From Ectothiorhodospira shaposhnikovii (GTDB lineage Bacteria > Pseudomonadota > Gammaproteobacteria > Ectothiorhodospirales > Ectothiorhodospiraceae), in NCBI RefSeq assembly GCF_022227765.1, contig NZ_JAJMLZ010000002.1:372001-436000 (forward strand): DNA of 64,000 nucleotides, given 5' to 3'. Both the position numbers and the translations under genes were made by a program. Every line of letters begins with the position of its first letter. The stretch's first letter is position 1. Below the pieces are notes generated by a model. That model was given only the letters and a program-made list of their open reading frames with translations, was not told the origin of the DNA and searched no databases. Of this stretch, positions 1 through 18,204 are shown piece after piece.

Positions 1-888
1 TCGGCTGACGCCGTGCTCCAGTAAAGAGCGAACCAGTTCACCGCGACGGCTCGACATGAACCGAAAGAGAATCTGCAGGATCAATTGACGGTCTGAGTTG
101 CGGAGTCCCTCAAGGGGTGTCCCGGGGTGAAGGCTAAGATCCTGGGGACTGACACCACCCACCTCCTTCATAAAATCGGACAACGCATTTTCTCCAATAC
201 TCCGACTCGCGGGTCTAACCAGCATCCCCATGTAATGGGCCAACTCAAACCATCGCGATGCACTGATCTGCTCGCCAAGGACTCTCCCATAACCGGTTCG
301 GATAACCCGGTCTGCCCAGCGCTGGAATGCCATGGCATCTTCAGAAAACAGTCGAGGGTGCGTCTGTCGAAGGTCTGCTCCGCAGCTCGCACAGATCGCT
401 AGGTTACCATCCTCTGGCTGTAGTCGATGAGGTTCTAAAGGCGAATCGCAGTGCCAGCAGCGATCCAACAAAGAGTTACCGTGTCGCTCACAGCCGACAT
501 GCCACACAAGACGCCAATGAACCCGATAAAACGGCGCGTGATCTTCAGTCAGGCAGTGAGGGCAATATTGGAGGCCCCCTTTACGCGAATGCCCCCGCGT
601 ACCCAGTGTAAGTAGCCATCGCCACTTCATTTTTTCGCTAGGCGGAGTGGGAACAACGCGATCTGCGATCCATCGTAAGGCGGCTTGCTCGATGGCTTCT
701 TCCGAGACGCCCGACACCGCGGCCAGGGCAGATGTGCGTTCCTCGTTGTACCCTCGGTCCGGATCGGCAGTCCATACCCGCCAGGTAGGCCATATTTGCT
801 GGGTCAGTGTCTTGGGGTCACAACCAAATGTCATAGCCGCGCGAATCAGCCAGGACGACAGCAGTTCGTCCGGATTTAGGGCAGGCAT
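1..888 (-). CDS. tniQ: TniQ/TnsD-family target-selection protein (3' part outside window)
   Basis: From ATG at 888 the frame stays open for 296 codons to the window edge, so the C-terminus is missing. The N-terminus reads MPALNPDELLSSWLIRAA, the hallmark start of TniQ proteins. Two zinc-binding clusters follow: C109-x2-C112 with C133/H136, then C144-x2-C147 with C166-x2-C169. TniQ proteins recognise the attachment site or a guide complex and recruit the TnsC ATPase. It starts 17 nt after the tnsC stop and is the last visible gene of the module. Given the insertion in comM, this protein is the likely comM-recognising factor (inference). The usual TnsD length of about 500 residues cannot be checked here. 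Confidence 0.88.
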   Translation of the reverse strand, partial: MPALNPDELLSSWLIRAAMTFGCDPKTLTQQIWPTWRVWTADPDRGYNEERTSALAAVSGVSEEAIEQAALRWIADRVVPTPPSEKMKWRWLLTLGTRGHSRKGGLQYCPHCLTEDHAPFYRVHWRLVWHVGCERHGNSLLDRCWHCDSPLEPHRLQPEDGNLAICASCGADLRQTHPRLFSEDAMAFQRWADRVIRTGYGRVLGEQISASRWFELAHYMGMLVRPASRSIGENALSDFMKEVGGVSPQDLSLHPGTPLEGLRNSDRQLILQILFRFMSSRRGELVRSLLEHGVSR

Positions 889-905
889 CAGCGGCCACTG
901 TGGGT

Positions 906-1796
906 TTACAGGGCGACTTCCCGAATGCCACGAGTCGGTCGTACCCATGTATTGCCCTCAATGATGGTCTTGTCGATCTGCTCTTGGCCATTGTTGATTG
1001 CATCCGTTGCGCAGACAACCAGTAGGCGATGCAGGTCGCCTAAGTTACCTCCACTGAGAGCATGAAGCCGCTGAGCCAGCTCAGGACGGTGGAGCATGGA
1101 TCGTTTTTTAAGCGGCAGCACCCTCTCAAAGCCCGCCAATAAATGCTGAAAATCCTTATCCAGCTTCCATGCCGACAACGCAATGACATCGAATCGGCTA
1201 GCGTGTTGCGGATCGGTGTGAAGGACTCGAACTGCATCCCGTGTCCCAACCCCGACAATGGGAATGGCCAGCTCATTGCAAAGCAGTTTGAGCGTATTCA
1301 TGACCTCACGCTGCTTGATGGCCGATCCGGTCAGCAGTGAGTGAAATTCGTCGATGACCAGCACTCGGGTTTGGCACAGCCGCAGCAAGTGAATTACCTG
1401 GTATCGCAGGCGGGATTTGGAATCTGTGGGGCGATAGGGGGTGAAGAATCGCTCCAGGATTGAAATGTACAAACCCTTTTCGTCGGCGCTAGGCGGTGCT
1501 TCTGCCAAGACCACGGGCTTTACCGGCTCTGAGTTTTCATCCACATAGCCTTCGCCGTGCAATTCCTTAAATCTTCGGACAATCGTGGTTTTACCATTAT
1601 TGGAATCCCCCACAATTAATAAATTTGGCATCCGAGGACGCTTGGGCTTTTCCATCAGTCCCCGCAGAGTATCCAGGATGTTGTTGGCTAAAGGGTAGGA
1701 AATCCATCGAGGCTGATCCATGAAGGCAATTCGATCCGCATTAGACATACCCATGATATGACGGAAGTCGGAGTGAATATGATCAAAGTCCATCAT
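906..1796 (-). CDS. tnsC: TnsC/TniB-type AAA+ transposition regulator
   Basis: This 296-residue protein is an AAA+ ATPase with Walker A GDSNNGKT at residues 63-70 and Walker B VLVIDE ending at residue 150, followed by FHSLL. The sequence is of the short TniB type rather than the ~555-residue TnsC of canonical Tn7. In Tn7-like systems the ATPase oligomerises on target DNA, connects the TniQ target selector with the TnsAB transposase and mediates target immunity. The ATG at 1796 overlaps the tnsB stop codon (ATGA), indicating translational coupling. A second Met follows directly and could be the start. Confidence 0.92.
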   Translation of the reverse strand: MMDFDHIHSDFRHIMGMSNADRIAFMDQPRWISYPLANNILDTLRGLMEKPKRPRMPNLLIVGDSNNGKTTIVRRFKELHGEGYVDENSEPVKPVVLAEAPPSADEKGLYISILERFFTPYRPTDSKSRLRYQVIHLLRLCQTRVLVIDEFHSLLTGSAIKQREVMNTLKLLCNELAIPIVGVGTRDAVRVLHTDPQHASRFDVIALSAWKLDKDFQHLLAGFERVLPLKKRSMLHRPELAQRLHALSGGNLGDLHRLLVVCATDAINNGQEQIDKTIIEGNTWVRPTRGIREVAL

Positions 1797-3727
1797 GAAA
1801 TATCACCCATGAAGTCAATCTCTCCGTCAATTAGCCCGTCCAAAATTGGCTGCTGCACGGTATCCGATTTCTCCTTTACAATGGGGGCGGCAGGAGTGGT
1901 TTTCTTTTCATGCTCCACACGCCGTTGGGCTTGCCTGCGGGCCTTCTTAGTTTTCCCCTTTGCCTCATCCACTTTGCCGCGCAACTCCGTGAGAGCGGCG
2001 AAGATCTGTTGTTCATTCACGCTTTCGGCACCTTGTTTTTTGAGCAATTCACGCGCTTGGCGATATTCCCAAATACTCATGGCAGGCAGCGTCAAATCAG
2101 CAAAGGGGATCTTGAAGTATTGCTTCAAGTCAGGATCAAAGAACCAGATCGCACTGATATCCCGGGGATCTCTGCGAAAAACAAACTCACGTTTCTTTTT
2201 GGGATCGTTTGCGCTGGTTGCGTTGATCCATGGGCGCAATGCCTCATCGTAATAGTGCATCCCATCAATGGTGACCCCGAAGGTCTGGATGGTACGATGA
2301 AAGGAGGGCAAGAAATCCAGGTAGACCGTATGACGATCTGCCGGGCGCGGTGGAATGCCAATGCCTGCCAAGTCGCCAACACCAAAAACACCAATTTCCC
2401 ACTTCTTGAGAGGCGACATCCCAATCCCCGAATGCAGTCGATGGTGGTAGACCTTGCAGATAAGGGTGACAAGCCATTCTTCAAATTCCGAAAGAGTCAT
2501 CGCTGCATGCTTTTCGGATTCGTAGCCTTCTTTGTGTTTCACCGATGAGAAAGTGGTTCCCGGTAGGTCGTGAATATCTCGAAGCAACGTGCCAAGCAGT
2601 CGTTCGATGTGTCCACCGTACTGGGGCTGCCCGACGGGCCGAAACTCCAGTTGGATGCCATGTGCCAAGCATGACTTCTGGAAGTTGTCGGATCGAAAAT
2701 CTGCGCCATTATCGACATGGATCTTCTTTGGGTAACCCCATACGGGCCAATCGGCGTCCACTTTGTGAAGTAGAAGCCATTCTTCCTTGGGCAACATGGA
2801 CTGGGATACGCACATAGCCACGGAAGTTTCCGAGGGTGGGTCAAAGGAGAGGTAGTAGCCAGTGACCATGCGGCTATAGATATCCATGGCAAGGGTAATC
2901 CACGGCCTGCCAATGGGCTTACGATGTGCATCATCCACCAGAATGATGTCTGCTGGGGTATGGTCAATCTGGATCACCGCCAAAGGGTAGTCCGCATCTG
3001 GGAAGCGCCCCGGGGTGGGTATGAACTTGTTTTTTGCTCGTTCCCTGTATCCGCGTTTACGCAGCCGCTCTTTTTCTGGAATGCGGCTGATTCGTGAGCG
3101 GATCGTTCCGGGGCTGGGGGGCGATACACCCCGTTCGGCGCAGATTCTTTGCACCTCAGTGACCGCCTTCTGATCAGTTGAACGCTGGTGGGTTAAGTAA
3201 TAATTTTGAATCACCTCTTCGATGATTTTTTCAGCAAATTCACCAATTCGACTTTTGCCGCGTTTCCACCCTCGGGTCATCGGGATGAGTGCGGTCATGG
3301 ACCCGTAGGCGTTGTAACGCTTGATCCATCGATACAGAGTGGCTGTGTCCACCCCCACCTCTTGGGCGCGTTTACTGACCTCGGATCGCCCTAACAGAGT
3401 ACCCTGCCTCAGCAATGGCTTGATAGCCTCAAATCGTCGTTCCGCCTCACGCCAATCCTTATCTCCTATTTCTAATAAGTCGTTGCGCTGCTGTGAGTGG
3501 CTGTTATTCTCCAGAGGACGCAGATCAGAGATGCGTAACGGTTGGCTTTGAAGGGTTTCGACATCGACACCGATCACCGATGAGAAATCCAGTATCTCAG
3601 TAATTCGATAAACTTTCCCATTGATTTGAACATAGGCCCCTATCTTGACATCGACCTTTTGCCGCTTGGGCGCAAAATCTGGACCATCAAACGCCATATC
3701 TATTTCGTATCCACAGGAATCACTCAT
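1793..3727 (-). CDS. tnsB: TnsB/TniA-family DDE transposase
   Basis: The product is a 644-residue member of the Mu/TniA/TnsB transposase family. The retroviral-integrase-type core is readable: first Asp in VIQIDHTPAD (about residue 255), second Asp in IHVDNGADF (about 339) and the Glu in GGHIERLLG (about 375). An N-terminal helix-turn-helix region (VDTATLYRWIKRY) precedes it, and a basic C-terminal tail probably contacts TnsC. TnsB binds repeats in the transposon ends and cuts and joins the 3' ends. The start at 3727 is chosen because its ATG overlaps the tnsA stop (ATGAGTGA); an upstream ATG at 3757 would overlap tnsA by 38 nt. Confidence 0.94.
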   Translation of the reverse strand: MSDSCGYEIDMAFDGPDFAPKRQKVDVKIGAYVQINGKVYRITEILDFSSVIGVDVETLQSQPLRISDLRPLENNSHSQQRNDLLEIGDKDWREAERRFEAIKPLLRQGTLLGRSEVSKRAQEVGVDTATLYRWIKRYNAYGSMTALIPMTRGWKRGKSRIGEFAEKIIEEVIQNYYLTHQRSTDQKAVTEVQRICAERGVSPPSPGTIRSRISRIPEKERLRKRGYRERAKNKFIPTPGRFPDADYPLAVIQIDHTPADIILVDDAHRKPIGRPWITLAMDIYSRMVTGYYLSFDPPSETSVAMCVSQSMLPKEEWLLLHKVDADWPVWGYPKKIHVDNGADFRSDNFQKSCLAHGIQLEFRPVGQPQYGGHIERLLGTLLRDIHDLPGTTFSSVKHKEGYESEKHAAMTLSEFEEWLVTLICKVYHHRLHSGIGMSPLKKWEIGVFGVGDLAGIGIPPRPADRHTVYLDFLPSFHRTIQTFGVTIDGMHYYDEALRPWINATSANDPKKKREFVFRRDPRDISAIWFFDPDLKQYFKIPFADLTLPAMSIWEYRQARELLKKQGAESVNEQQIFAALTELRGKVDEAKGKTKKARRQAQRRVEHEKKTTPAAPIVKEKSDTVQQPILDGLIDGEIDFMGDIS

Positions 3728-4391
3728 CGTTGGCCACCCACAATACGGTGTGTTCATTCAGTGGTCGGTAAATGTCGCAATCAAGCTGGCGGGTCGCCAA
3801 CAAGTGCCATAGGTGAGAAATCCCCTCGGCTCGATACAGGCCCATGAAGTATCGTGCCAAAAGATAATGAAAAGGAGCCGACCCCATACGGGCCAAGCCT
3901 TGGATAATCCAATCGCTTTCCTCCCTCGGAAATACCATACGCTTATATCGTTCCAGAAACTGGATATTGGCAAACATCTGATCCCGGATTCTGGATTCAT
4001 CGTGGATATGAAACTCCCACTCTTCCTGCTTGGCGTACCGGTAAGCGGCTTTCCATTTGGGTAGCCAGTCTCGCCAATGCTCGCGCCACTGTGATTCCGG
4101 TTTGACTTCAACCAATAACGGCCTGGGGAAGTCAGAGTGCGTCCGATTTCCGAGGCGGAAGTACACGAGGAAGTCCGGCGTGTAGGTATACTCTCGACCG
4201 CCCCGAAGGCTAAAGCGGATTTGGCAGGGCTGGGGGATGATGTCCAGAACCGTCCGGTTAAACTCATTTCGTGCGATAAAATCACGCTCTAACGTCGATT
4301 CGTAAGGAATGGCGGTCTCACCCCGAAAGGGGTAAATACCCGAAACACTTCGTCGGGTCGGTTTAATGGTTCGAGCCTGTGTCGGGATCAT
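3720..4391 (-). CDS. tnsA: TnsA-type endonuclease subunit of the transposase
   Basis: This is a 223-residue TnsA homologue. The restriction-endonuclease-like active site is visible as YESTLERDF (Glu31/Glu35), YTPDF (Asp73) and VEVKP (Glu95, Lys97), the same E...D...x-K layout as Tn7 TnsA. TnsA cuts the 5' strands at the element ends while TnsB cuts the 3' strands, giving cut-and-paste rather than replicative movement. It is the first gene of the module. Its ATG lies 2 bp from the innermost TnsB-type end repeat, so binding of TnsB to the end could also repress the operon (inference). Confidence 0.93.
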   Translation of the reverse strand: MIPTQARTIKPTRRSVSGIYPFRGETAIPYESTLERDFIARNEFNRTVLDIIPQPCQIRFSLRGGREYTYTPDFLVYFRLGNRTHSDFPRPLLVEVKPESQWREHWRDWLPKWKAAYRYAKQEEWEFHIHDESRIRDQMFANIQFLERYKRMVFPREESDWIIQGLARMGSAPFHYLLARYFMGLYRAEGISHLWHLLATRQLDCDIYRPLNEHTVLWVANDE

Positions 4392-4393
4392 GG

Positions 4394-4528
4394 CTGTCGC
4401 ACCTATTTTTGGAAAAAAGCAACGAAGTCGCGCCTATTTCTAGCAAATTCGTCGCATTAATTTCTGAAAAAGCGCCCTAAGCTGTTGATTTTTGGTTACG
4501 CCTGTCGCACTTTATCTAGTATATGACA
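4394..4528. repeat. Right end of the Tn7-like element: four TnsB-type binding repeats plus terminus
   Basis: Four similar ~18-bp direct repeats with core GTCGC, followed in three of them by an A/T-rich half close to CTATTTCTAG, start at about 4394, 4425, 4449 and 4502. The GTCGC cores are at 4396, 4427, 4451 and 4504. The outermost copy runs into the terminal TATGACA ending at 4528. Several repeats of a short TnsB site at unequal spacing are the normal structure of Tn7-family ends. The next five bases, GTGGT (4529-4533), are the candidate target-site duplication, which can only be confirmed from the unseen left end. Confidence 0.75.
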
Positions 4529-5202
4529 GTGGTTCACGCCCCAAACCCGGAGAGATTTCCCTGGCCCATAACGGAATTCTGTTCCTGGACGAACTGGCGG
4601 AGTTCGACCGCAAGGCCCTGGACGTGCTGCGTGAACCCCTGGAGACCGGCCGCATCTCCATCTCCCGCGCCGCCCGGCAGGCGGAGTTTCCGGCCCGTTT
4701 CCAACTGGTGGCGGCGATGAATCCCTGCCCCCAGGGCTATGACTGCGACCTGGGACCCCACTGCCGCTGCACGCCGGAACAGCGTCGGCGGCACCGGGGG
4801 CGCATCTCGGCCCCGCTGCTGGACCGGATCGACCTGTCCATCGAGGTGCCCCGGCTGCCGCGGGATGTGCTGATGGATCCGGGACCGCCCCCGGAATCCA
4901 CCGAGCAGGTCAGGTCGAGGGTGGCCGCCTGCCGGGACCGGCAACTGGCACGGCAGGGGAAACTGAACGCGGCCCTGTCCGGGCGGGAAGCGGAAGGAAT
5001 CTGTACGCTGGCCCCGGCCCACCAACAGTTGCTGGAAACGGCCATGGACCGTTTCAGGCTCTCGGCTCGGGCCTATCACCGCATCCTGAGGGTTGCCCGC
5101 ACCCTGGCGGACATGGATGGCGCGCCCCGGATCGAGGCGCACCACCTGATGGAAGCCCTGAGCTACCGGGCCATGGACCGCTGGCGGGCCAGTGAGGCCT
5201 GA
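4529..5202 (+). pseudogene. comM: comM (YifB, Mg-chelatase-like helicase), 3' fragment split by the transposon
   Basis: The reading frame beyond the transposon terminus encodes the C-terminal ~225 residues of ComM/YifB (intact proteins are about 500 residues). It starts inside the GGGS-x-P-x-PGEISLAHNG segment, continues through LFLDELAEFDRKALDVLREPLETG (Walker B and sensor region of the Mg-chelatase ATPase) and ends with the C-terminal helical domain. The frame is otherwise undamaged, so the insertion looks recent or the fragment is not long decayed. ComM is a hexameric branch-migration helicase used in natural transformation; separation from its Walker A half should abolish function. A TTG at 4492 inside the transposon end could give a chimeric start, but no strong ribosome site is seen. 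Confidence 0.9.
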
Positions 5203-5227
5203 GCATTCACGGCCGGGACTGGACGGA

Positions 5228-7048
5228 TCAGCCGCCGCTGGCGCGGGAGGCGCGCTTGCGCTCGTGCTCCAGCAACAGCTTCTTGCGCACCCGGATCGCC
5301 TTGGGGGTGACTTCCACCAGTTCATCGTCCTCGATGAATTCCAGGGCCTGCTCCAGGGACAGGCGCAGGGGCGGCGTCAGGATGATGTTCTCGTCGGAAC
5401 CGGCGGCGCGGATGTTGGTGAGCTGCTTGGCCTTGAGGGGGTTCACCACCAGGTCGTTGTCCCGGGTGTGGATGCCGATGACCATGCCCTCATAGACCTC
5501 TTCACCGGGGCCGATGAACATGCGGCCACGCTCCTGCAGGTTGAACAGGGCAAAACCCAAGGCCTTGCCGTTGCCGTTGGCGATCAGTACCCCGTTGTTG
5601 CGGGGGGCCACCGCGCCGGCGCGGAACTCGCCGTAACTGTCGAACACATGATGCAGGATGCCGGTGCCGGAGGTGGCGGTCAGGAATTCGGTCTGGAAAC
5701 CGATCAGGCCGCGGGAAGGCACCCGGTAGTCCAGACGCACCCGGCCCTTGCCGTCGGGGATCATGTCCAGCAGTTCGCCGCGGCGGCTGCCCAGCTTTTC
5801 CATAATGCCCCCCTGGTGCTGCTCCTCCACGTCCACCGTCACCATCTCATAGGGCTCTTCCTTGATTCCGTCGCGGGTGCGCACGATGACTTCCGGGCGG
5901 GACACGCCCAGCTCGTAGCCCTCGCGGCGCATGTTCTCGATCAGGATGGACAGGTGCAGCTCTCCCCGGCCGGACACCCGGAACTTGTCCGGATCGTCGG
6001 TCTCTTCCACCCGCAGGGCCACATTGTGCTTGAGCTCCTCCATCAGACGCTCGCGCAGGTTGCGGGAGGTGACGTACTTGCCGTCACGTCCGGCGAAGGG
6101 CGAGGTGTTGACCTGGAAGGTCATGCTCACGGTAGGCTCGTCCACCGTCAGGGCCTTGAGGGGCTCCACCGCAGCCGGGTCGCAAATGGTATCGGAGATA
6201 TAGAGTTCATCCATGCCGGTGAAGGCGATGATGTCACCGGCACGGGCCTCGGGCACTTCCATCCGGTCCAGCCCCCGGAAGCCCAGGATCTGGAGCACGC
6301 GCCCGTTACGCACGTTGCTTTCCCGGTCCATGACCTTGACGGCGGTATTGGTCCTGATCTTGCCGCGGGTGATACGGCCGATCCCGATCAAACCCTGATA
6401 GGTGTTGTAATCCAGGGAGGACACCTGCATCTGGAACGGGCCTTCCGGGTCCACGCTGGGGGACGGCACCTTGTCGATGATGGTCTGGAACAGAGGATCC
6501 ATGTTGCCTTCGGTCACACCCGGCTCCAGGCCGGCGAAACCCTTGAGAGCGGAGCAATACACCACGGGGAAGTCGAGTTGTTCCTCGCTGGCGCCCAGGC
6601 GGTCGAAGAGGTCGAAGATCTGATCCACCACCCAGTCGGGACGGGCGCCGGGGCGGTCGATCTTGTTCACCACCACGATGGGGCGAAAGCCCATGGCGAA
6701 GGCCTTGGCGGTGACGAAGCGGGTCTGGGGCATGGGGCCGTCGACCGCATCCACCAGCAACAGCACGGAATCCACCATGGACAGCACCCGCTCCACCTCG
6801 CCGCCGAAATCGGCGTGGCCGGGGGTATCCACCACATTGATCCGGTAGCCGTTCCACTCCAGGGCGGTGTTCTTCGCCAGGATGGTGATGCCCCGCTCCT
6901 TTTCCAGCGCGTTGGAGTCCATCATCCGCTCCACCACCTGAGCCCGGGCGTCCAGGGTCCCCGAATGCTGCAGCAGCTTGTCCACGAGGGTGGTCTTGCC
7001 ATGGTCCACGTGGGCGATGATGGCGATGTTGCGAAGCTTGTCGGTCAT
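5228..7048 (-). CDS. typA: TypA/BipA ribosome-associated translational GTPase
   Basis: This 606-residue protein has the translational GTPase G1 region [16 protein letters not shown] close to the N-terminus, G2 ERGITI, G3 [16 protein letters not shown] and G4 NKID, followed by EF-G-like domains and the BipA-specific C-terminal domain ([20 protein letters not shown], then [11 protein letters not shown]). BipA binds 70S ribosomes and assists large-subunit assembly and stress adaptation. The start [13 protein letters not shown] at 7048 matches the family; an upstream Met would add 34 unrelated residues. It is transcribed towards the comM fragment. Confidence 0.97.
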
Positions 7049-7221
7049 GGGGAAAACGGCCTGCCGCCGGGGGATTGTTGGGCAAAGGGGGCGAGGATTA
7101 TACAGCCCGCGGGGTTGCGCGGATATGGCAAGGCCATGGATTATCCGCACGAAAACGGGTATTCCGCGGGGAAATTGGGCATCATGAGGCCCTGCAACCC
7201 CTGTGCACAGGAGGCCTTCCC

Positions 7222-7581
7222 ATGAAGACCCGTTATCAGGACATTGCCCCCTATCAGACGCTGGACGGATCGGAAATCCGGGAACTCATGCATCCCCGCC
7301 TGAATGGGGAGGGCGCGCTGAGCCTGGCGGAAGCCCTGGTACAGCCCGGCGCCGACACCCGCCTGCACCGCCACATGCAGACCGAGGAGCATTATCACTT
7401 CACCCAGGGCGAGGGGATGATGTATCTGGGAGATCAGGCCTTCCCGGTCAATGCGGGAGATACGGTCAGGATACCGCCCGGGGTCGCCCACAAGGTCCGG
7501 AATACCGGTGATGTGCCCCTGCGCATCCTGTGTGCCTGCGCGCCCCCCTATCGCCATGAGGACACGCAGGTTCTGGACTGA
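7222..7581 (+). CDS. Small cupin-domain protein
   Basis: This 119-residue single-domain cupin carries the first motif as HRHMQTEEHYHFTQGEG and the second as PPGVAHKVRNTG, giving the usual His/His/Glu/His metal-binding set. Such stand-alone cupins are often sugar-phosphate isomerase-like or simple metal-binding proteins; the substrate cannot be told from sequence. The ATG at 7222 is preceded by an AGGAGG-type ribosome site (7208-7214). Its stop codon abuts that of the convergent ycgL gene with no spacer. Confidence 0.85.
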   Translation: MKTRYQDIAPYQTLDGSEIRELMHPRLNGEGALSLAEALVQPGADTRLHRHMQTEEHYHFTQGEGMMYLGDQAFPVNAGDTVRIPPGVAHKVRNTGDVPLRILCACAPPYRHEDTQVLD

Positions 7582-7848
7582 TCAGGCCGGTGTCTCGTTC
7601 TCCGCCGGCATCTGCAGATGAAATCCCCGGCTTCTGAGGTTTTCCATTACCTGGGCGGCATCCTCCCGGGCCAGCCTGCGTTCGGGGGTCAGTTCGAACT
7701 CCAGGGCAAACACCGGCGCGCCGAACACCCTCATCAGGGCCTCCGGCAGGGATGAAAAATCATCCTTGGCGGGCAGGTAGAGATAGGTATCCTGCTTGCG
7801 GCTGCTGCGATAGACGTAGCATGGCATGCCGTGGGTGTCGTGACTCAA
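7582..7848 (-). CDS. YcgL-domain protein
   Basis: The core MPCYVYRSSRKQDTYLYL, followed by KDDFSSLPEALMRVFG, is the signature of the YcgL family (about 90-100 residues, function not established). It is often found near cell-division or RNase D genes in gammaproteobacteria, which is not the case here. The start is a TTG at 7848, placed 8 nt after an AAGGAG ribosome site, giving 88 residues. Starting at the internal ATG (7827) would leave only the core and no good ribosome site. It is convergent with the cupin gene. Confidence 0.8.
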   Translation of the reverse strand: MSHDTHGMPCYVYRSSRKQDTYLYLPAKDDFSSLPEALMRVFGAPVFALEFELTPERRLAREDAAQVMENLRSRGFHLQMPAENETPA

Positions 7849-7971
7849 ACCATGTTCTCCTTCGCTCAAGCATCAATACGTTGGCAATCATACATTGGCA
7901 ATCCCGCAACCGCCCGTCATTCCCCCCCGCATCTGACCCGGCGCAAATTCCGTGCAAACCACGACAAGGAC

Positions 7972-8718
7972 TCAATCCGCCTCGAAGATCACATCAGGCT
8001 CATCGGACGGGGGCTGCACTTCAGCCGGCGGCGGTAACCGGGGCGCGGCGCCCACCCGGTCCCAGACCTCCATGCGCTGAATATCCCGGCGCCGGTACTC
8101 AAAGGCCACGTGGCCGCCCATGACGACCTGCTGCAGGTAGAGACTGGTGGGGGTGGTCGCAATCAGATTGCCCTCCCGAACCACCCCGTCACCCAGTACC
8201 AGCCGCATGCGCGCGCCCTCAAGCCGGGGCAGTTCGGCCGGCAAGGCCGTGCGATAGGCCCTGGGCACGGGCGCGGGATCGGCCTCCAGCCGGAAGCTGG
8301 AAGCCGGCGGCAGGGGCTGGACCGGTGCAAAGGGGTCGTACTCGGCAATCTCCAGCGGTTGCCCGATTTCTTCCTCAATCCGACGGATCAGGGCCTGATT
8401 GGGTAACTCCACATCCCAGGGGCGGGTGACGGGCATCTGGATTTCCACCCCCACGCCGAACCGATCCAGGGTTTGCTCCACGGTCCGATCCGCACCGCCG
8501 TACAGGGCTCCACCGAGTACCAGCAGCCCCATCACCGACACCAGAAAGCCGGTCCGGGCCCGACGCCAGTGCAGCAACACGAAGGCCAGCGAGACAATAG
8601 GGACGAGATTGATCACGCCCCAGATGAATTCCCGGCGAAATCCGGCCCGGACCACCAGCAGGTAACCCAGGAGCACCAGTGCCGACCCTGCCAGCAGGGC
8701 GCCGTCCAGTACCGTCAT
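7972..8718 (-). CDS. Hypothetical membrane protein with large soluble C-terminal part
   Basis: The 248-residue product has three predicted transmembrane helices in the first ~85 residues (LDGALLAGSALVLLGYLLVV, FIWGVINLVPIVSLAFVLL, GFLVSVMGLLVLGGALYGG). A Pro- and Arg-rich soluble region of about 160 residues follows, including a beta-rich segment MRLVLGDGVVREGNLIATTPTSLYLQQVVMGG that resembles a small barrel. No catalytic motif is recognised and no family is named. The start at 8718 is chosen over an upstream Met because the hydrophobic N-terminus begins there. Confidence 0.65.
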   Translation of the reverse strand: MTVLDGALLAGSALVLLGYLLVVRAGFRREFIWGVINLVPIVSLAFVLLHWRRARTGFLVSVMGLLVLGGALYGGADRTVEQTLDRFGVGVEIQMPVTRPWDVELPNQALIRRIEEEIGQPLEIAEYDPFAPVQPLPPASSFRLEADPAPVPRAYRTALPAELPRLEGARMRLVLGDGVVREGNLIATTPTSLYLQQVVMGGHVAFEYRRRDIQRMEVWDRVGAAPRLPPPAEVQPPSDEPDVIFEAD

Positions 8719-8848
8719 GCGCAGACCCTCGAACCGCCACTCAATCGCAGGATTATAACAGCGCCCATACCGGCCATTGTCGCTTGTCCCTACCACCCGC
8801 CCGGGTTAAGCTGCCGATCAGCGGTCAGAACCTCAAGGAGAGAGGCGC

Positions 8849-9367
8849 ATGTCCAGGGAATACGGCCTGACACTCACCGAACTGCTCATCACGCTCGCCG
8901 TTGCCGCGGTGCTTGCCACCCTTGCCATCCCCGGTTTTGCGGGCATGGTGCGGGAGCAGCAGTTGATTACCACCACCAACACCTTCATCAGTGCCCTCCA
9001 CACGGCCCGCTGGGAAGCCGTGAAGCGAGGTCGCCACGCCCTGCTCTGCCCGTCCACGGACGGGCAGCAATGTACCGACACCTCCTATGCGGAAGGCTGG
9101 ATCGTCGGCGTGGTGGAACACCCGGTCACCGGACCGGTGATCCAGCCCGCCACGGTCATTCGTCATTTTGGCCCCGTGCCCGCGTCGGTGACCATCCACA
9201 CCAATGGCACAATGGGGGAATACATTGCCTATCGCAACGACGGCCAGACCCGTCGTCTGAACGGCGCGCTGCAGATGGGGTCGGTGTGGCTATGCCATGG
9301 GGAGACGGGGCGGCGGATCGTCATCAGCCGAACCGGACGGGCGAGAGTGGAAATCACGTCCTGCTAA
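8849..9367 (+). CDS. FimT/FimU/GspH-like minor pseudopilin
   Basis: This 172-residue protein has the class III signal MSREYG|LTLTELLITLAV: a short basic leader, a prepilin-peptidase Gly at position 6, Glu at +5 and a hydrophobic helix. The C-terminal globular part ends with GRARVEITSC, and paired cysteines are typical of FimT/FimU minor pilins of type IV pilus or uptake machinery. It stands alone, far from the gsp operon, and may serve DNA uptake or pilus initiation (inference). A GGAGAG ribosome site precedes the ATG. It is followed by an intrinsic terminator shared with the HiPIP gene. Confidence 0.82.
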   Translation: MSREYGLTLTELLITLAVAAVLATLAIPGFAGMVREQQLITTTNTFISALHTARWEAVKRGRHALLCPSTDGQQCTDTSYAEGWIVGVVEHPVTGPVIQPATVIRHFGPVPASVTIHTNGTMGEYIAYRNDGQTRRLNGALQMGSVWLCHGETGRRIVISRTGRARVEITSC

Positions 9368-9383
9368 GTGAGGCAGGCTCATC

Positions 9384-9415
9384 GGAACCGCCCGGGCCTT
9401 GGGCCGGGCGGTTCC
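9384..9415. terminator. Bidirectional hairpin between pseudopilin and HiPIP genes
   Basis: A 12-bp perfect inverted repeat (GGAACCGCCCGG / CCGGGCGGTTCC) with an 8-nt loop lies between two convergent genes. No long T-run follows, so its strength as an intrinsic terminator is uncertain. Confidence 0.7.
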
Positions 9416-9425
9416 TGTCGGGGAT

Positions 9426-9752
9426 TTAACGGGCCACCCAGGCGGTGCACCAGCCGTTGGCGGATACCAGTTTGCCGGGGAACACGGAGCAAGGACCCCA
9501 GTCCTGGGCGCTGGCATCCGTGTACAGCAGGCAGTTCAGGCAGGTCTGCCCTTCCTCATAAGCGGGATGCTGCACACTTGAGGCATCGTGCCGGTATTCC
9601 AGGGCCTGAGCAGCGGGATCATCCTCGCTCAGGCGCTCCATGGCCTTGGCCGTCGTAGTCCAGCCCAGGCCTGCCACTGGCACGGCCAGCAGACCATAAC
9701 TGCCGAACTTCAGAAAACGGCGCCGACTCAGGGTATTGTCGCGATCTTTCAT
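9426..9752 (-). CDS. hip: High-potential iron-sulfur protein (HiPIP), Tat-exported
   Basis: The 108-residue precursor has a twin-arginine signal (LSRRRFLKFGSYGLLAVPVAG, ending near TAKA). The mature domain carries the four [4Fe-4S] ligands C71-x2-C74, C88 and C102 in the HiPIP spacing, with the family features CLNCLLYTD and NGWC. HiPIPs are periplasmic one-electron carriers between the bc1 complex and a reaction centre or terminal oxidase, common in purple sulfur bacteria and relatives. This supports an Ectothiorhodospiraceae-type host. It is monocistronic; the 200 bp up to the divergent ABC gene must hold its promoter. Confidence 0.95.
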   Translation of the reverse strand: MKDRDNTLSRRRFLKFGSYGLLAVPVAGLGWTTTAKAMERLSEDDPAAQALEYRHDASSVQHPAYEEGQTCLNCLLYTDASAQDWGPCSVFPGKLVSANGWCTAWVAR

Positions 9753-9953
9753 CGTCTCTTCTCCTGTGTGTTCGTCGTGTCAGTCTCGCAGCATGCCCCT
9801 GGCATTCGAGTCCCGCGCCGGTCCCTGATATTCTGTTGTCCCGCCTTGGCAGCGCAGGCTTACCACCTACATAAGCTGGGGGCACCGGATTCACCCTAGC
9901 GAACCCCGGCCATGGGCGCAAGTCTCCCGGAGACCACCTTCACGACCCTTATA

Positions 9954-10619
9954 ATGAATCGATTTCGCTCCTCGGAACCTCATCCCTCCCCTACCCTCAC
10001 GGAAGATTCGCCGGACACGCCCTTGCTGCTCCAGATCCAACAACTTCACACCCCCCAGGTCGGCCCCCTGGACCTCGCCCTTGGCGCCGGAGAACTGGCC
10101 CAGGTGGCCGGTCCGTCCGGTGCCGGCAAGTCCCTGCTGCTGCGCGCCATCGCCGACCTGGATCGCAATGAAGGCCTGATCCGACTGGAAGGACAACCCC
10201 GACAGGCCCTGAGCGGGTCCGACTGGCGACGCCGGGTGGGCTACCTGCCGGCGGACCCGGCCTGGTGGGCGGACACGGTGGGTGAACATCTGCAACCGGG
10301 CGGTGAACACTGGCTGGAAGCCCTGGGTTTCGGCCCGGATGTGCGCACCTGGACCGTGGACCGGCTCTCCAGCGGAGAACGGCAACGTCTGGCGCTGGTG
10401 CGGGTACTGCAGAACCGGCCCCGGGTCCTGCTGCTGGACGAACCCACCGCCAATCTGGACCCGGACAACACCCTGATCATGGAAGGCCTGATCCGGGATT
10501 ATCTGCGCGACAGCGATGCCGCCGCCCTGTGGGTCAGCCATGACGCGGAGCAGCGTAGCCGCCTGGGCGGCCGCCTCCTCCTGATGGAAAGCGGTCAACT
10601 GATGGAGTCAAACGGATGA
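9954..10619 (+). CDS. FetA-like ABC transporter ATP-binding protein
   Basis: The 221-residue ATPase has Walker A GPSGAGKS (residues 53-60), signature LSSGERQR, Walker B VLLLDEPTANLD and switch His in WVSHD. Size and the YLPADP Q-loop region (glutamine replaced) resemble E. coli FetA (YbbL). It overlaps the downstream permease gene by 4 nt (ATGA), so the two form one transporter. FetAB was described as an iron exporter that protects against peroxide; that role is inferred here from the pair. The start at 9954 is uncertain: an upstream ATG at 9912 is in frame, and neither has a clear ribosome site. Confidence 0.85.
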   Translation: MNRFRSSEPHPSPTLTEDSPDTPLLLQIQQLHTPQVGPLDLALGAGELAQVAGPSGAGKSLLLRAIADLDRNEGLIRLEGQPRQALSGSDWRRRVGYLPADPAWWADTVGEHLQPGGEHWLEALGFGPDVRTWTVDRLSSGERQRLALVRVLQNRPRVLLLDEPTANLDPDNTLIMEGLIRDYLRDSDAAALWVSHDAEQRSRLGGRLLLMESGQLMESNG

Positions 10620-11413
10620 ACGTCATCGCCCTGTCACCCCTGGACCTTACTCTGGCGGCCCTGCTGGTGATTGCCCTGGCGGCGCTGACCAGCCGGGTGG
10701 GCATGGGGCTGTCGAAGAGCCTGCTGGTCTCGGCCGCCCGCACGGTGGTGCAACTGCTGCTGATCGGCCTGGTGCTCAAGACCCTGTTCGAGCATGCCGC
10801 CCTGCACTGGGTGGCCATCATGGCACTGGTGATGCTGCTGGTGGCGGGCCGGGAAGTGGTGGCCCGACAGGGGCGACGATTCACCGGCTGGTGGGCCTAC
10901 GGCATCGGTACCCTGGCCATGTTCGTGTCCGCCTTCACCGCCACGGTGTTTGCGTTGACCGTCATCATCGGCCCGGCACCCTGGTGGGAGCCCCAGTACG
11001 CCATCCCCCTGCTGGGCATGCTGCTAGGCAACACCATGACCGGGATCGCCCTGGGCCTGGACCGTCTCACCCAGTCCGCCTGGCAACAACGCCGGGTGAT
11101 CGAGGGCCGCCTGATCCTGGGGCAGACCTGGACCGAGGCGATTCGGGACATTCGCCGGGATGCCGCCCGTAGCGGCCTGATGCCCATCATCAATGCGATG
11201 GCGGCGGCGGGCATCGTCAGTCTGCCCGGCATGATGACCGGTCAGATCCTGGCGGGCACACCGCCCATGGAAGCGGTGAAATACCAGATTCTGGTGATGT
11301 TTCTCATCACCGCGGGCACCGGATTCGGTACCCTGGGGGCCATTTGGCTGGGATCCCGGCGCCTGTTCGACGAGCGGGAGCGACTGCGGCTGGACCGCCT
11401 GAAGGCCGGATGA
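10616..11413 (+). CDS. FetB-like (UPF0014) ABC permease
   Basis: This 265-residue integral membrane protein has about six to seven hydrophobic helices and matches the FetB/YbbM family. Conserved stretches include SAARTVVQLLLIGLVL, PLLGMLLGNTMTGIALGLDRL and NAMAAAGIVSLPGMMTGQILAG. It pairs with the ATPase just upstream through an ATGA overlap. The likely role is metal (iron) export, as for E. coli FetAB. About 140 bp without a gene follows before speA. Confidence 0.88.
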   Translation: MNVIALSPLDLTLAALLVIALAALTSRVGMGLSKSLLVSAARTVVQLLLIGLVLKTLFEHAALHWVAIMALVMLLVAGREVVARQGRRFTGWWAYGIGTLAMFVSAFTATVFALTVIIGPAPWWEPQYAIPLLGMLLGNTMTGIALGLDRLTQSAWQQRRVIEGRLILGQTWTEAIRDIRRDAARSGLMPIINAMAAAGIVSLPGMMTGQILAGTPPMEAVKYQILVMFLITAGTGFGTLGAIWLGSRRLFDERERLRLDRLKAG

Positions 11414-11554
11414 AACCCATCGAGCCACCGGCTGTCGAAAAGCCCGTTGCAGGCTCCCCGGCGGCACGGCATAGGGAGTATCATACGCCCGCTTTACCGG
11501 GTCGGCGTCCCAGCGAGGCCGCCCCTTCATTCGCGCTGATCGACAAGGCCCATC

Positions 11555-13435
11555 ATGACAGATTGGACGACGGATAACGCCCGCCAGACCTACAATATCC
11601 CCCACTGGAACGGCGACTACTTTCACATCAATGAGCAGGGCCGCGTGATCGTCCGGCCGCCCGCCCATGCCCGGCATCCGGGCGTGGACCTGTTCGAACT
11701 GGTGAACCATGTATCCGGCCTGAACATCGACGTGCCGGTGCTGGTGCGCTTTCCGGACATCCTCTGCGACCGCGTGAAGCGACTCACCGAGGCCTTCGAT
11801 CAGGCCATCGAGGACAACGAGTTCCCCGGCCGCTACACCGCCGTCTATCCCATCAAGGTGAATCAGCAACGCAGCGTGGTGGAGCGCATCCTCACTTGTG
11901 GCGGCGAGCGGGTGGGCCTGGAGGCAGGCAGCAAACCGGAACTGATGGCGGTGCTGGCCCTGGCCCGCCCCGGCGGGGTGATCGTCTGCAACGGCTACAA
12001 GGACCGGGAATACCTGCGTCTGGCCATGATCGGCCAGCTGCTGGGACACCGGGTCTACATCGTCATCGAAAAACCCTCGGAGCTGAACGGCGTCATCGAG
12101 GCCGCCCGCGACCTGGGGGTCCGCCCCTCCCTGGGCATGCGGGTGCGGCTGGCCTCCATGGGCAAGGGCAAGTGGCAGAACACCGGTGGCGAAAAGGCCA
12201 AGTTCGGCCTCTCCGCCGCCCAGGCCCTGAAGCTGCTGGACCAGCTGCGGGACCACGACATGCTGGACTGCATGCAGCTGCTGCATTTCCACATGGGTTC
12301 CCAGATCGCCAACATCCGCGACATCCAGTCAGGCATGTACGAAGCCTCCCGCTTCTTTGCCGAACTGCATCGTCTGGGCGCCCCCATCCAGGTGGTGGAC
12401 GCCGGCGGCGGCCTGGGGGTGGACTACGAGGGCACCCGCTCCCGCAACCTGTGTTCCATCAATTACAGCCTGCAGGACTATGCCGACAGCCTGGTGCGCA
12501 TCCTGGCCAACACCTGCCGGGAATACGACCTGCCGCCACCGGAGATCTTCACCGAGTCCGGTCGTGCCATGACCGCCCATCACGCGGTGCTGATCACCAA
12601 TGTGATCGACACCGAGCGTGCGCCGGTGGCCGCCGACATCCAGCCCCCCGACGAGGAGGCCCCGGCGGTACTGCTGGACATGTGGAGCCTGTTCGAACGC
12701 ACTGCCGAGAGCGCCCCCACCGAAGTCTTCCACACCATGGTGGACTGGCTGCGGGAAGTGCAGTCCATGTTCACCCACGGCCTGCTGGACCTGGAGCACC
12801 GGGCCTTGGCGGAGCAGATCTACTTCGCCACCTGCCGACGCCTGCTGACCCGGCATGCCCAGCGCCTGCCCCGGGATATCGCCGACGAACTCACGGAAAA
12901 GCTCTCGGACAAGTATTTCTGCAACTTCTCCGTGTTTCAGTCCATCCCGGACGTCTGGGCCATCGACCAGATCTTCCCCATCATGCCCCTGCACCGGCTG
13001 GACGAGCGCCCCACCCGGTTGGGGGTGCTGCAGGATCTCACCTGCGACTCCGACGGCCACGTGGACCGCTACGTGGACGGCGAGACCATCGTCCCCAGTC
13101 TGCCCCTGCACGAGTTCCGCCCCGGGGAACAATATCTGCTGGGGATCTTCATGGTCGGGGCCTACCAGGAAATCCTGGGCGACCTGCACAATCTGTTCGG
13201 CGACACCGACGCCATCAACGTGGTGCTGACCCGGGACGGCGGCTACGAGGTGGTGGAACCGGAACAGGGAGACACGGTGGAGGAGCTGCTGCGCTACGTG
13301 CACTTCGACACCGAGTTGCTGGCGAGCGCCTATCGCACCAAGGTGGCGGCCGCGGGCCTGGACGAAGCCACGCAGCGGCAGATCCTCCAGGAACTGGACA
13401 ACGGCCTGTCCGGGTACACCTACCTGGAAGACTGA
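11555..13435 (+). CDS. speA: Biosynthetic arginine decarboxylase
   Basis: This 626-residue PLP-dependent fold-III decarboxylase converts arginine to agmatine, the first step of one putrescine route. The PLP lysine lies in YPIKVNQ (K101), the glycine-rich phosphate loop in DAGGGLGVDYEG, and a C-terminal cysteine is found in LQDLTCDSDGHVD. Length and motifs match SpeA of proteobacteria (about 630-660 residues). No agmatinase or agmatine deiminase gene is adjacent. The start ATG at 11555 gives the family N-terminus (TYNIPHWNGDYF). Confidence 0.97.
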   Translation: MTDWTTDNARQTYNIPHWNGDYFHINEQGRVIVRPPAHARHPGVDLFELVNHVSGLNIDVPVLVRFPDILCDRVKRLTEAFDQAIEDNEFPGRYTAVYPIKVNQQRSVVERILTCGGERVGLEAGSKPELMAVLALARPGGVIVCNGYKDREYLRLAMIGQLLGHRVYIVIEKPSELNGVIEAARDLGVRPSLGMRVRLASMGKGKWQNTGGEKAKFGLSAAQALKLLDQLRDHDMLDCMQLLHFHMGSQIANIRDIQSGMYEASRFFAELHRLGAPIQVVDAGGGLGVDYEGTRSRNLCSINYSLQDYADSLVRILANTCREYDLPPPEIFTESGRAMTAHHAVLITNVIDTERAPVAADIQPPDEEAPAVLLDMWSLFERTAESAPTEVFHTMVDWLREVQSMFTHGLLDLEHRALAEQIYFATCRRLLTRHAQRLPRDIADELTEKLSDKYFCNFSVFQSIPDVWAIDQIFPIMPLHRLDERPTRLGVLQDLTCDSDGHVDRYVDGETIVPSLPLHEFRPGEQYLLGIFMVGAYQEILGDLHNLFGDTDAINVVLTRDGGYEVVEPEQGDTVEELLRYVHFDTELLASAYRTKVAAAGLDEATQRQILQELDNGLSGYTYLED

Positions 13436-13456
13436 TCCGGCGCGGGACACCCCCCG

Positions 13457-14221
13457 TCAGTGGGCGGTCATGCCCCCGTCCACCAGATAATGGGCGCCGG
13501 TGATGCCACTGCCGGCGTCGGACAGAAGCAGCGCGGCCACGGCGGCGATCTCCTCGTTGGTGGAATAGCGCCCCAAGGGGATGCGGGTGACGAAGTCGTG
13601 CTTGACCTCGTCGCCGTGTCCCGGGTTTGCCTGCTCCTCGATGGAGCGCATCATCCGGTTGTCCACCGGACCGGGGTTGACCGTGTTCACCCGGATGCCC
13701 TCCGGCCCCAGTTCCACGGCGGCGCAGCGCATCATCCCCATCACCGCGTGCTTGCTGCTGACATAGGGCGCCAGCCCGGCCGCTCCCCGTACTCCGGCCA
13801 CGCTGGCGGTGATCAGGATGGCGCCCCCTCCGGCCCGACGCAGCGCCGGTACCGCCGCCTGCAGGCCATGACGCACCCCGTGCAGATTGACCGCGAAGAC
13901 CCGCTCCCAATCCTCATCGGTGGTGGATGCCAGCGGCCCCACACGGCCCTCGATGCCGGCATTGAGGAATACGCCGTGCACCGCCCCGAAACGCTGTTCC
14001 GCCGCCTGGATCATGGCCTGGTTCTCCTCCCGTCGACTGACATCCACGGCCATCCCCGCCGCCCGCTCCCCCAGCGCCGCGGCCAGCGCCTCCACCCCAT
14101 CCGCCTCCCGGTCCGTCAGCAGCAGCCTGGCCCCCTGGGCGTACAGCAGACGGGCGGTGGCCTCACCGATGCCCCCCGCCGCGCCGGTGATGACGATAAC
14201 CTTGTCATTGAATTGGCTCAT
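13457..14221 (-). CDS. SDR-family oxidoreductase
   Basis: The 254-residue classical short-chain dehydrogenase/reductase has a cofactor motif TGAAGGIG near the N-terminus, NAG in FLNAGIEG, and a catalytic Ser in ITASVAG followed by Tyr-x3-Lys in YVSSK. Acidic residues after beta-2 (TDRE) suggest NAD(H) preference. The substrate is unknown; the PGPVDNRMMRSIEEQ lid region is that of generic 3-oxoacyl-reductase-like members. It is convergent with speA, about 20 bp apart. Confidence 0.88.
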   Translation of the reverse strand: MSQFNDKVIVITGAAGGIGEATARLLYAQGARLLLTDREADGVEALAAALGERAAGMAVDVSRREENQAMIQAAEQRFGAVHGVFLNAGIEGRVGPLASTTDEDWERVFAVNLHGVRHGLQAAVPALRRAGGGAILITASVAGVRGAAGLAPYVSSKHAVMGMMRCAAVELGPEGIRVNTVNPGPVDNRMMRSIEEQANPGHGDEVKHDFVTRIPLGRYSTNEEIAAVAALLLSDAGSGITGAHYLVDGGMTAH

Positions 14222-14352
14222 GGTGATGCCTCCTCCGTTGAACGGTCTGTGTTGAGTCCTGACGCCTCATGCACTAAACTTAGCAGCCTTTCCACGCACC
14301 TGCCGCGCCCCTTCCGGCGGTCTGTGCAAGGATCCAACCGGTTTCGGTGCCC

Positions 14353-14428
14353 GCCGGCATAGCTCAGTTGGTAGAGCAGCGCATTCGTAATGCGAAGGTC
14401 GTAGGTTCGACTCCTATTGCCGGCACCA
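14353..14428 (+). tRNA. tRNA-Thr (anticodon CGT)
   Basis: The 76-nt cloverleaf has acceptor GCCGGCA/TGCCGGC, a D-arm with AGTTGGTA, anticodon loop TTCGTAA (CGT, reading ACG) and a T-arm with GGTTCGACTCC. CCA is encoded. Apart from two acceptor-stem pairs it is nearly identical to E. coli thrW. Confidence 0.97.
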
Positions 14429-14445
14429 TTTGCAGTGATGAAAAG

Positions 14446-14468
14446 CCCGGCAATGCCGGGTTTTTTTT
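14446..14468 (+). terminator. Intrinsic terminator of the tRNA-Thr gene
   Basis: A 6-bp stem CCCGGC / GCCGGG with loop AAT is followed by eight T residues, 18 nt after the tRNA 3' end. Confidence 0.92.
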
Positions 14469-14534
14469 CGCTCCGTGACCAGGATATGCTGCGGGAAACC
14501 CATGCCTTTCCCCCTCTCTCACGGAGCGCTCCCC

Positions 14535-15041
14535 ATGGCCGCCGCACCCGGCACTGTCCATACCTTCGAGGCCGACGACATTCAGGGCCGGACCCGCGCC
14601 CTGTCAGAATTCCAAGGCCGCGTCCTGCTGATCGTCAACGTCGCCAGCCACTGTGGATTCACCAAACAGTACAACGGCCTGCAGGCCCTGCAGGATCGTT
14701 TCCATGACCGGGGATTCGACGTACTGGGCTTTCCCTGCAATCAGTTCGGCAACCAGGAACCGGGCAACGAGGCCCGGATCGCCGACTTCTGCACCACCCG
14801 CTTCCAGGTGAGCTTTCCCATGTTCGCCAAGGTGGAGGTCAACGGCGCCGGCGCCCATCCCCTGTTCCGTCACCTCAAGGCCGCCGCGCCAGGTCTGCTG
14901 GGCTCCCAGGGCATCAAGTGGAACTTCACCAAGTTTCTGGTGGACCGCCACGGCCGGACCGTCCGGCGCTATGCCCCCAATGTGCCGCCGGAAGCCATCG
15001 CGGGGGACATCGAGCGACTGCTCGAAGCGCCACCGACCTAG
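14535..15041 (+). CDS. Glutathione peroxidase (Cys type)
   Basis: The 168-residue product belongs to the GPx/BtuE family. The peroxidatic residue is Cys40 in NVASHCGFTKQY (not selenocysteine), with the Gln-bearing FPCNQFGNQEPG motif and the Trp in IKWNFTKFLVDRHG. These enzymes reduce hydroperoxides using thioredoxin or glutathione. The start ATG at 14535 follows a GGAG ribosome site in the spacer after the tRNA terminator; an upstream in-frame start would overlap the terminator region. The TRAP genes follow after 89 bp. Confidence 0.94.
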   Translation: MAAAPGTVHTFEADDIQGRTRALSEFQGRVLLIVNVASHCGFTKQYNGLQALQDRFHDRGFDVLGFPCNQFGNQEPGNEARIADFCTTRFQVSFPMFAKVEVNGAGAHPLFRHLKAAAPGLLGSQGIKWNFTKFLVDRHGRTVRRYAPNVPPEAIAGDIERLLEAPPT

Positions 15042-15130
15042 TCGGCGCGAGGTTGTCACGCGCAACCGGTTTGGTTCATATTCCAAAAAACAACATCACA
15101 ATGAACCCACCACCGAGGAGCATCAAGGCC

Positions 15131-16249: not shown

Positions 16250-16258
16250 GCCTGCTCC

Positions 16259-16285
16259 GGAGCCCCACCCACGGGGTGGGGCTCC
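16259..16285 (+). terminator. Stable intercistronic hairpin between dctP and dctQ
   Basis: A perfect 12-bp stem (GGAGCCCCACCC / GGGTGGGGCTCC) with loop ACG lacks a U-run. Hairpins at this place in binding-protein operons usually attenuate transcription or protect the upstream message, raising the binding protein over the permease. Confidence 0.7.
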
Positions 16286-16318
16286 TCCGACCCACTGACG
16301 GGATCATCGGAGATCGTC

Positions 16319-16870
16319 ATGTCCCGCCTCCTCCTTCGCTTCGAGCATGTGCTGTACCGGATCACCAGTCTGGCCGGTGGAATCTCGGCCATCGCCATGG
16401 CTGCCATGATCCTGCTGATCTTCGGCAACATGACCGCCCGCTACGCCCTCGGCACCGGCGCCGTGTGGCTGCAGGAACTGGAGTGGTATCTGCTCTCCCT
16501 GAGCGTGATGACCGGCATTGCCTATGCCATGCGTTCCGATGAACACGTTCGGGTGGACGTCTTTTCCCATCGTCTGAGCCGCGTGGGCAAGCTGTGGCTC
16601 AACGGCATCACCATGGTGCTGGTGGCCATCCCCATCGCGGCCCTGGTCCTGTTCTACACCTGGCCCTTCGTCAGCATCTCCTATGTACGCGGCGAGGGCT
16701 CGCCCAACGCCGGCGGCATGCCCTGGCTGTTCCTGCCCAAGGCCATGATCCTGCTGGGCTTTGCCCTCATTATCAGCGAGGCCCTGCGGCAGACCCTGAG
16801 CATCGGCCGCCGCCTGCTTTTCCATTACCGTCGCCCCGGGTCCCGCCGGAGGATTGCCCATGCCCCTTGA
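16319..16870 (+). CDS. TRAP transporter small permease subunit (DctQ)
   Basis: The 183-residue protein has four predicted membrane helices, the DctQ pattern, with the conserved VWLQELEWYL and DVFSHRLS stretches. DctQ and DctM form the sodium-dependent membrane complex that accepts ligand from the periplasmic binding protein. Its 3' end overlaps the dctM start by 11 nt, so the two are translationally coupled. Confidence 0.92.
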   Translation: MSRLLLRFEHVLYRITSLAGGISAIAMAAMILLIFGNMTARYALGTGAVWLQELEWYLLSLSVMTGIAYAMRSDEHVRVDVFSHRLSRVGKLWLNGITMVLVAIPIAALVLFYTWPFVSISYVRGEGSPNAGGMPWLFLPKAMILLGFALIISEALRQTLSIGRRLLFHYRRPGSRRRIAHAP

Positions 16871-18185: not shown

Positions 18186-18204
18186 GCCGCGGTTTGACGT
18201 CGAA

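Follow-up and report, generated by a model that had tools for sequence, protein, structure and literature searches.

What interrupts the comM gene at the beginning of a 64,000-nt stretch of the Ectothiorhodospira shaposhnikovii genome, and why does it sit at exactly this place? The stretch (hereafter "the window") comprises positions 372,001 to 436,000 of contig NZ_JAJMLZ010000002.1 (G000:C12:372001-436000) in GCF_022227765.1, the only assembly of this 3.34-Mb genome. A sequence-only reading had proposed that a Tn7-like element is lodged in comM, with its cargo to the left of the window. The other end of the element, its cargo and the 5′ half of comM were all found on the same contig. The element is a Tn7-like transposon of 16,967 bp (G000:C12:359562-376528, or L003:1562-18528, where L003 is the region C12:358001-377500 and window positions are L003 positions minus 14000), and its right end is window position 4528. 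It is very probably a complete, mobile transposon of the Tn6022 family that was guided into comM by the target selector TnsF. As such the element itself is ordinary, i.e. a new member of the Tn6022 family; it extends TnsF-guided targeting of comM to another bacterial genus.

The interruption is exact. Position 4528 is the last base of the element, where the terminal repeat ...ATATGACA is followed by GTGGT, and the 3′ part of comM begins directly after it, reading GSRPKPGEISLAHNG. When the two halves are joined with one GTGGT copy, they yield a single open frame reading ...GIALVGGGSRPKPGEISLAHNG..., which aligns to the intact comM of the congener G401 over 1533 bases without a gap (87.7% identity). 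The insertion point, which the sequence-only reading had placed correctly, is thus at the GGGS-x-P codons of comM, with a 5-bp duplication. No uninterrupted comM was found in the genome, in which TIGR00368 gives five short weak matches beyond the two halves. A comparison with comM of relatives lacking the element, as proposed in the earlier reading, agrees: among nine other genomes of the genus, the gene was found in one piece above the family cut-off in seven. It is split in G404 (see below) and in two pieces in G405. The latter is broken between residues 171 and 190, and its pieces lie within about 50 bases of contig ends (C21 and C28; L083 and L084), so that no statement about this gene is possible; the break represents either another insertion or an assembly gap.

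The element is bounded by 26-bp terminal repeats (TGTCAT...TGCGACA). Its left end is TGTCATTTCCAGAAATAATTGCGACA, and the right end, read inwards, is TGTCATATACTAGATAAAGTGCGACA. A 16-nt repeat occurs twice at the left end and a related 21-nt repeat three times at the right end, which is the pattern expected of TnsB sites, as in Tn7. The TnsB-site motif AGAAATANNTGCGACA, with up to one mismatch, has three occurrences in the 3.34-Mb genome, all of them at the element ends, and the backward control has none, showing that the ends are not due to chance and that the element is present as a single copy. With a G+C content of 0.523, the element lies below both a 20-kb stretch on its left side (0.593) and the remainder of the window (0.65). 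The coordinates of all features are compiled in the table.

Table. Features of the interrupted comM locus, from left to right.
Feature	Window position	Position on L003	Strand	Evidence or remark
comM 5′ part		698-1561	+	TIGR00368 residues 2-284 at C12:358728-359564
Target-site duplication GTGGT, first copy		1557-1561	.	left of window
Far-end gene, 597 aa (putative remote TnsE)		1600-3393	+	homologous to same-position gene of Acinetobacter elements
NA37 protein		3501-4664	+	Pfam NA37
484-aa protein with hydrophobic C-terminal segments (membrane-tailed)		4665-6119	+	directly after NA37 gene
Small membrane protein, 168 aa		6240-6746	-	
Ribbon-helix-helix protein		7173-7448	+	
Type III Mod, 682 aa, whole		7492-9540	+	PADLOC MTase_III, 576 bits
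Type III Res, two frames		9542-10072 and 9969-12326	+	profile positions 1-133, then 133-594
TnsF-like zinc-finger protein, 478 aa, next to TniQ		12385-13821	-	homology; left of window
TniQ, 376 aa (N-terminal 316 aa within window)	1..948	13818-14948 (whole gene)	-	PF06527, 82.9 bits
TnsC, TniB-type AAA+ ATPase, 296 aa	906..1796	14906-15796	-	PF05621, 251 bits
TnsB, DDE transposase, 654 aa	1793..3757	15793-17757	-	PF09299, marginal PF00665, TnsB tree
TnsA, endonuclease, 223 aa	3720..4391	17720-18391	-	PF08722, PF08721
Right end: TnsB-site-like repeats and 26-bp terminal repeat (4503-4528)	4396..4528		.	three 21-nt direct repeats, motif scans, sequence
Target-site duplication GTGGT, second copy	4529..4533		.	
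comM 3′ part, from about residue 287 to the end	4529..5202	from 18529	+	TIGR00368 residues 282-499 at C12:376528-377169

The complete tnsA-tnsB-tnsC-tniQ module that had been read from the window was recovered, with Pfam matches for all four proteins; TniQ is cut by the window edge and whole on the contig. The PF00665 match on TnsB is marginal (31.5 bits versus a cut-off of 32.6), the other core-gene Pfam matches are above their cut-offs, and TnsB matches solved TnsB chains (phmmer). The combination of tnsA, tnsB, and tnsC with a short tniQ (376 aa; about 370 aa in the family) is that of the Tn6022 family. As TnsA is present, the element probably moves by cut-and-paste. Alternatively, it could be an immobile remnant, i.e. 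a formerly transposing element that is now fixed, to which its single copy and the frameshifted type III Res gene (see below) would conform. We consider this improbable, because each of the six transposition genes has an open reading frame (ORF) of normal length, both ends and the duplication are intact, and the damage is limited to the cargo.

The choice of comM can be explained by a TnsF homolog that follows tniQ to the left of the window, beyond the view of the sequence-only reading. Faure et al. (2023; PMC10293859) described TnsF (formerly orf3/tniE) as the comM target selector of Tn6022 that is essential for transposition of AjTn6022 into comM; binding of TnsF to TniQ and to comM DNA was demonstrated, and insertion into comM was reconstituted with TnsA, TnsB, TnsC, TniQ, and TnsF. 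A TnsF-type selector, known from AjTn6022, would thus be the cause of the comM choice shared with the Acinetobacter elements. In the present element, tniQ and tnsF overlap by four bases, so that tnsF starts inside the last bases of tniQ. The 478-aa protein shares 35% identity with its positional counterparts in two A. baumannii elements, 43% with that of Halomonas, and 50% with that of Methylobacter, and the gene order is the same in all three genera. An alignment with 11 rows contains 33 invariant columns, 24 of which are cysteines, in the first 190 residues. By analogy with the published selector, the 478-aa TnsF homolog is predicted to direct insertion into comM.

TnsF homologs are also used by Tsy transposons, e.g. 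that of Zoogloea, to target comM (PMC10293859), which move by tyrosine recombinases and lack Tns genes. At a Tsy-like locus (L053, genome G048), the genes beside a comM piece encode a 379-aa tyrosine-recombinase-like protein, a 130-aa protein, a 640-aa protein, and a 109-aa GIY-YIG-like protein (names assigned by eye). A profile of eight TnsF-like proteins, made without the Tsy row, matches the 640-aa Tsy-type TnsF with 99.9% probability over 403 columns. The target gene and this homology would also be shared by a Tsy-type transposon in comM, moved by a tyrosine recombinase and an active TnsF. Such an origin has a negligible probability and is in effect refuted by the gene content: TnsA, TnsB, TnsC, and TniQ are present, no integrase family has a Pfam match among the element ORFs run, and the 478-aa TnsF ends in the alignment where the 640-aa protein continues, i.e. 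it is shorter by the C-terminal stretch.

The family assignment was addressed with trees. In the TnsB tree (21 rows, midpoint-rooted for drawing), the element forms a group (97/97) with the elements of Methylobacter, halomonads, Pseudomonas putida, and G237 and with two from A. baumannii. Next to this group, the elements located in comM of G404, G302, and G433 cluster together (82/85). Tn402 and Tn5053 branch off outside, at an open fork (90/90), and Tn7, Tn552, and a CRISPR-associated transposon (CAST) of type I-F are distant. The TnsC tree (17 rows, no CAST row) agrees, recovering the same group with 91/97. The trees of TnsB, TnsC, TniQ, and TnsF contain long branches; they lack a checked type V-K CAST row, L060 and L063 being cyanobacterial relatives of unchecked type. 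The kinship with Tn6022/AbaR suggested by the sequence-only reading is therefore upheld by TnsB and TnsC, as is the tree placement it had proposed as a check for TnsB; for TniQ, the same check was not decisive. The proteins of the two Acinetobacter elements that were read (L024 and L059, the latter of which we take to be Tn6022 from its uspA and SulP genes) are only 27-52% identical to those of the present element, and the host is another one.

Several results weigh against the interpretation as a mobile, TnsF-guided Tn6022-family transposon. Mobility is inferred, and the genome is represented by a single assembly. AlphaFold modelled a halomonad TnsF poorly (mean predicted local distance difference test (pLDDT) score 47.5), which gives no structural confirmation of a recombinase fold, and a sequence search of the PDB found no recombinase related to TnsF. 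Profile comparison, PDB search, and Pfam revealed no sequence relation between the 597-aa far-end protein and the TnsE of Tn7, including no TnsE_C match. Lastly, the TniQ tree is mostly unresolved, its best-supported pairing being with Methylobacter (93/97). This tree, together with the TnsB identity of only 38-49% to the Acinetobacter proteins, would be compatible with an element that is Tn7-like without belonging to the Tn6022 family and that independently acquired its preference for comM, with TniQ itself reading the site. This alternative is already disfavoured, and very unlikely, in view of the TnsF homolog after TniQ, the far-end gene common to the Acinetobacter, Halomonas, and Methylobacter elements, and the TnsB and TnsC groupings with Acinetobacter.

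For a TnsF-guided Tn6022-family transposon, the following mechanism can be proposed, in which the roles of TnsF, TniQ, and TnsE are adopted from the literature. TnsB would bind the short repeats at both ends and, together with TnsA, free the element. TniQ would link the ATPase TnsC with TnsF; the latter, a protein with zinc fingers, may by homology carry an inactive tyrosine-recombinase domain and would recognise the conserved DNA around the GGGS-x-P codons. The outcome would be an insertion in fixed orientation, with a 5-bp duplication and a broken comM. The far-end gene, as a remote TnsE, may provide a second selector with which the element could leave for plasmids or other mobile DNA. The host might gain the cargo (a type III methylase and candidate defence genes), and the lost ComM-assisted transformation may shield the element. 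As comM helps natural transformation (PMC10293859), its repeated capture bears on the self-protection of mobile elements. The TnsA-bearing end faces the 3′ part of comM in all seven loci with that junction read (the own locus, L019, L020, L021, L049, L051, and L054). A phylum-wide sample of 398 genomes yielded TnsF in 8, including the own genome; among 47 genomes of the family, it is present in three (the own genome, G404, and G433), adjoining a comM piece in each of them. No relatives of TnsF or TnsE were confirmed in viral contigs.

The far-end protein is 27% identical to its counterpart in Acinetobacter and 41-45% to those in Methylobacter and Halomonas. Faure et al. (PMC10293859) describe a remote, divergent tnsE, encoded on the opposite strand close to the left end and with <10% identity to the TnsE of Tn7, and the lack of a detectable link in the present case agrees with this value. 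The gene is designated TnsE on the strength of that paper rather than of its sequence. Among six halomonad loci with nearly identical ends, three carry the element at the same codons of comM; in the other three it lies elsewhere, in two of them inside an insertion sequence (IS)-type transposase gene (IS reading by eye). A Methylobacter relative sits in a plasmid and has AGTGC on both sides. The insertions outside comM might thus reflect a TnsE-like route to mobile DNA.

For comparison, the relation to known elements was characterized. Tn6022/AjTn6022, the AbaR backbone of Acinetobacter, shares the order TnsA-TnsB-TnsC-TniQ-TnsF, the tniQ/tnsF overlap, the far-end divergent tnsE on the opposite strand, and the insertion into comM with a target-site duplication (PMC10293859). 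It differs in cargo, which in the present element consists of type III restriction-modification (R-M) and unknown genes, with no resistance genes among the ORFs scanned. TnsC is 46.6-75.7% identical to that of the Tn6022-type elements of Acinetobacter, Halomonas, and Methylobacter, and TnsA is 59% and 68.6% identical to those of Halomonas and Methylobacter, respectively. The closest relative in the plasmid collection is the above-mentioned Methylobacter element (Methylobacter sp. YRD-M1, NZ_CP091425.1, ~53.6-85 kb), with identities of 76% (TnsC), 69% (TnsA), 66% (TnsB), and 50% (TnsF) and nearly the same ends; it differs in its site, the duplicated sequence, and the cargo. The Halomonas/Vreelandella elements (L016-L021) share gene order and end motif, and the identities to the present element are 63% for TnsB, 38% for TniQ, and 43% for TnsF. 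In several Vreelandella/Halomonas species (L016-L019, L021), TnsF is 99-100% identical and the elements are at different sites, indicating recent spread among halomonads.

Tn5053/Tn402 and canonical Tn7 have the DDE transposase, the AAA+ ATPase, and TniQ/TnsD in common with the present element. However, the Tn402/Tn5053 loci that were read (L058, L061) have no TnsA or TnsF match, and the TnsB of canonical Tn7 is only about 24% identical. Canonical Tn7 (attTn7) was ruled out by the insertion in comM, instead of downstream of glmS, and by the missing TnsE_C match. A CAST is likewise not supported, as a PADLOC scan of ten element ORFs detected TniQ and type III R-M but not any Cas effector; the two Res pieces gave weak Cas3b/DinG/Csm5 lines.

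The cargo had been expected to include defence systems, metal resistance, or CRISPR effectors. Type III R-M genes were found, and none of the cargo ORFs that were scanned with Pfam, NCBIfam, and PADLOC matched a metal-resistance family or a Cas effector. The R-M system is not intact: Mod is whole and Res is split by a single frameshift near L003:9966, as two ORFs match adjoining profile positions. In this one assembly, the frameshift represents either a methylase-only system or a sequencing or assembly error. This part of the cargo is ordinary, because, among the defence systems that Tn7-like elements carry, R-M systems are the most frequent (PMC8649781).

The NA37 gene and the following gene for a 484-aa protein form a cassette that is possibly a new item, and the pair appears to be undescribed. 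An NA37-like gene directly precedes the 484-aa relative in seven of eight loci read, i.e. the own element, a Xanthomonas plasmid (L078), G286 (L080), G190 (L081), G178 (L082), and the IMG/VR contigs L085 and L086. The pair thus recurs in plasmids, chromosomes, and prophage-like contigs. Six of these seven NA37 genes pass the Pfam cut-off; the one of L081 is without a Pfam match, and its alignment reaches only 19%. In the eighth locus, a Klebsiella plasmid (L079), IS26 lies upstream of the 484-aa relative, and NA37 was not found. The L086 pair sits between a phage-type repressor (by eye) and an integrase (Pfam), the L085 pair is near a repressor-like gene, and the stretch bearing the L081 pair also holds a type I restriction gene and a SoFic-like gene. 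Few genomes encode a relative of the 484-aa protein (4 of 398, counting the own genome), the phage collection gave no match to it, and the AlphaFold model for the family is poor (mean pLDDT 40.5). The pair matched no PADLOC model. Searches for NA37 relatives in viral contigs by their own patterns confirmed none, although L085 and L086, which were fetched by the 484-aa protein, carry NA37. No publication linking NA37/YejK to defence was found in the largely open-access literature, without preprints, that was covered, which does not show absence from print. Judging from these contexts, we tentatively guess that the pair may be an undescribed two-gene system against phages or mobile elements, with Tn7-like transposons, plasmids, and prophage-like elements as its carriers; it is a concrete candidate for a defence assay.

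The congener G404 has its comM interrupted at this very point by about 29.8 kb (L049/L050, G404:C1:1289501-1323000). The junctions read GGAGGTGGC|TGTGAATTCCAC... and ...GTGGAATTCACA|GTGGCTCACG, so that GTGGC is duplicated. Its TnsA, TnsB, and TnsC share only 37-43% identity with their counterparts in the present element, the ends differ, and its TnsF (528 aa) has kept a longer C-terminus, all of which shows a separate insertion. Within one genus, two species therefore carry quite different Tn6022-like elements at exactly the same nucleotide of comM. Several transposase-like genes are nested in the G404 element. In G433, from the same family, the element adjoins the 3′ part of comM and encodes a 681-aa protein (L051:7673-9718) in which TnsF-like zinc fingers are fused to a TniQ domain and to a SAM-like phage-integrase N-terminal domain (PF02899). 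This protein resembles the one TniQ-TnsF fusion, SCZ64694, mentioned by Faure et al. (PMC10293859). The capture by two elements and this fusion make the host family a good place to study the transition from tyrosine recombinase to target selector.

A methylase and a partner gene are common to the Tn6022-like element of G404 (L049:16041-18445) and the Tsy-like element of G048 (L053:15093-17488), both located at comM, with identities of 47% and 28%. Unrelated elements that use the same comM site thus gather the same cargo.

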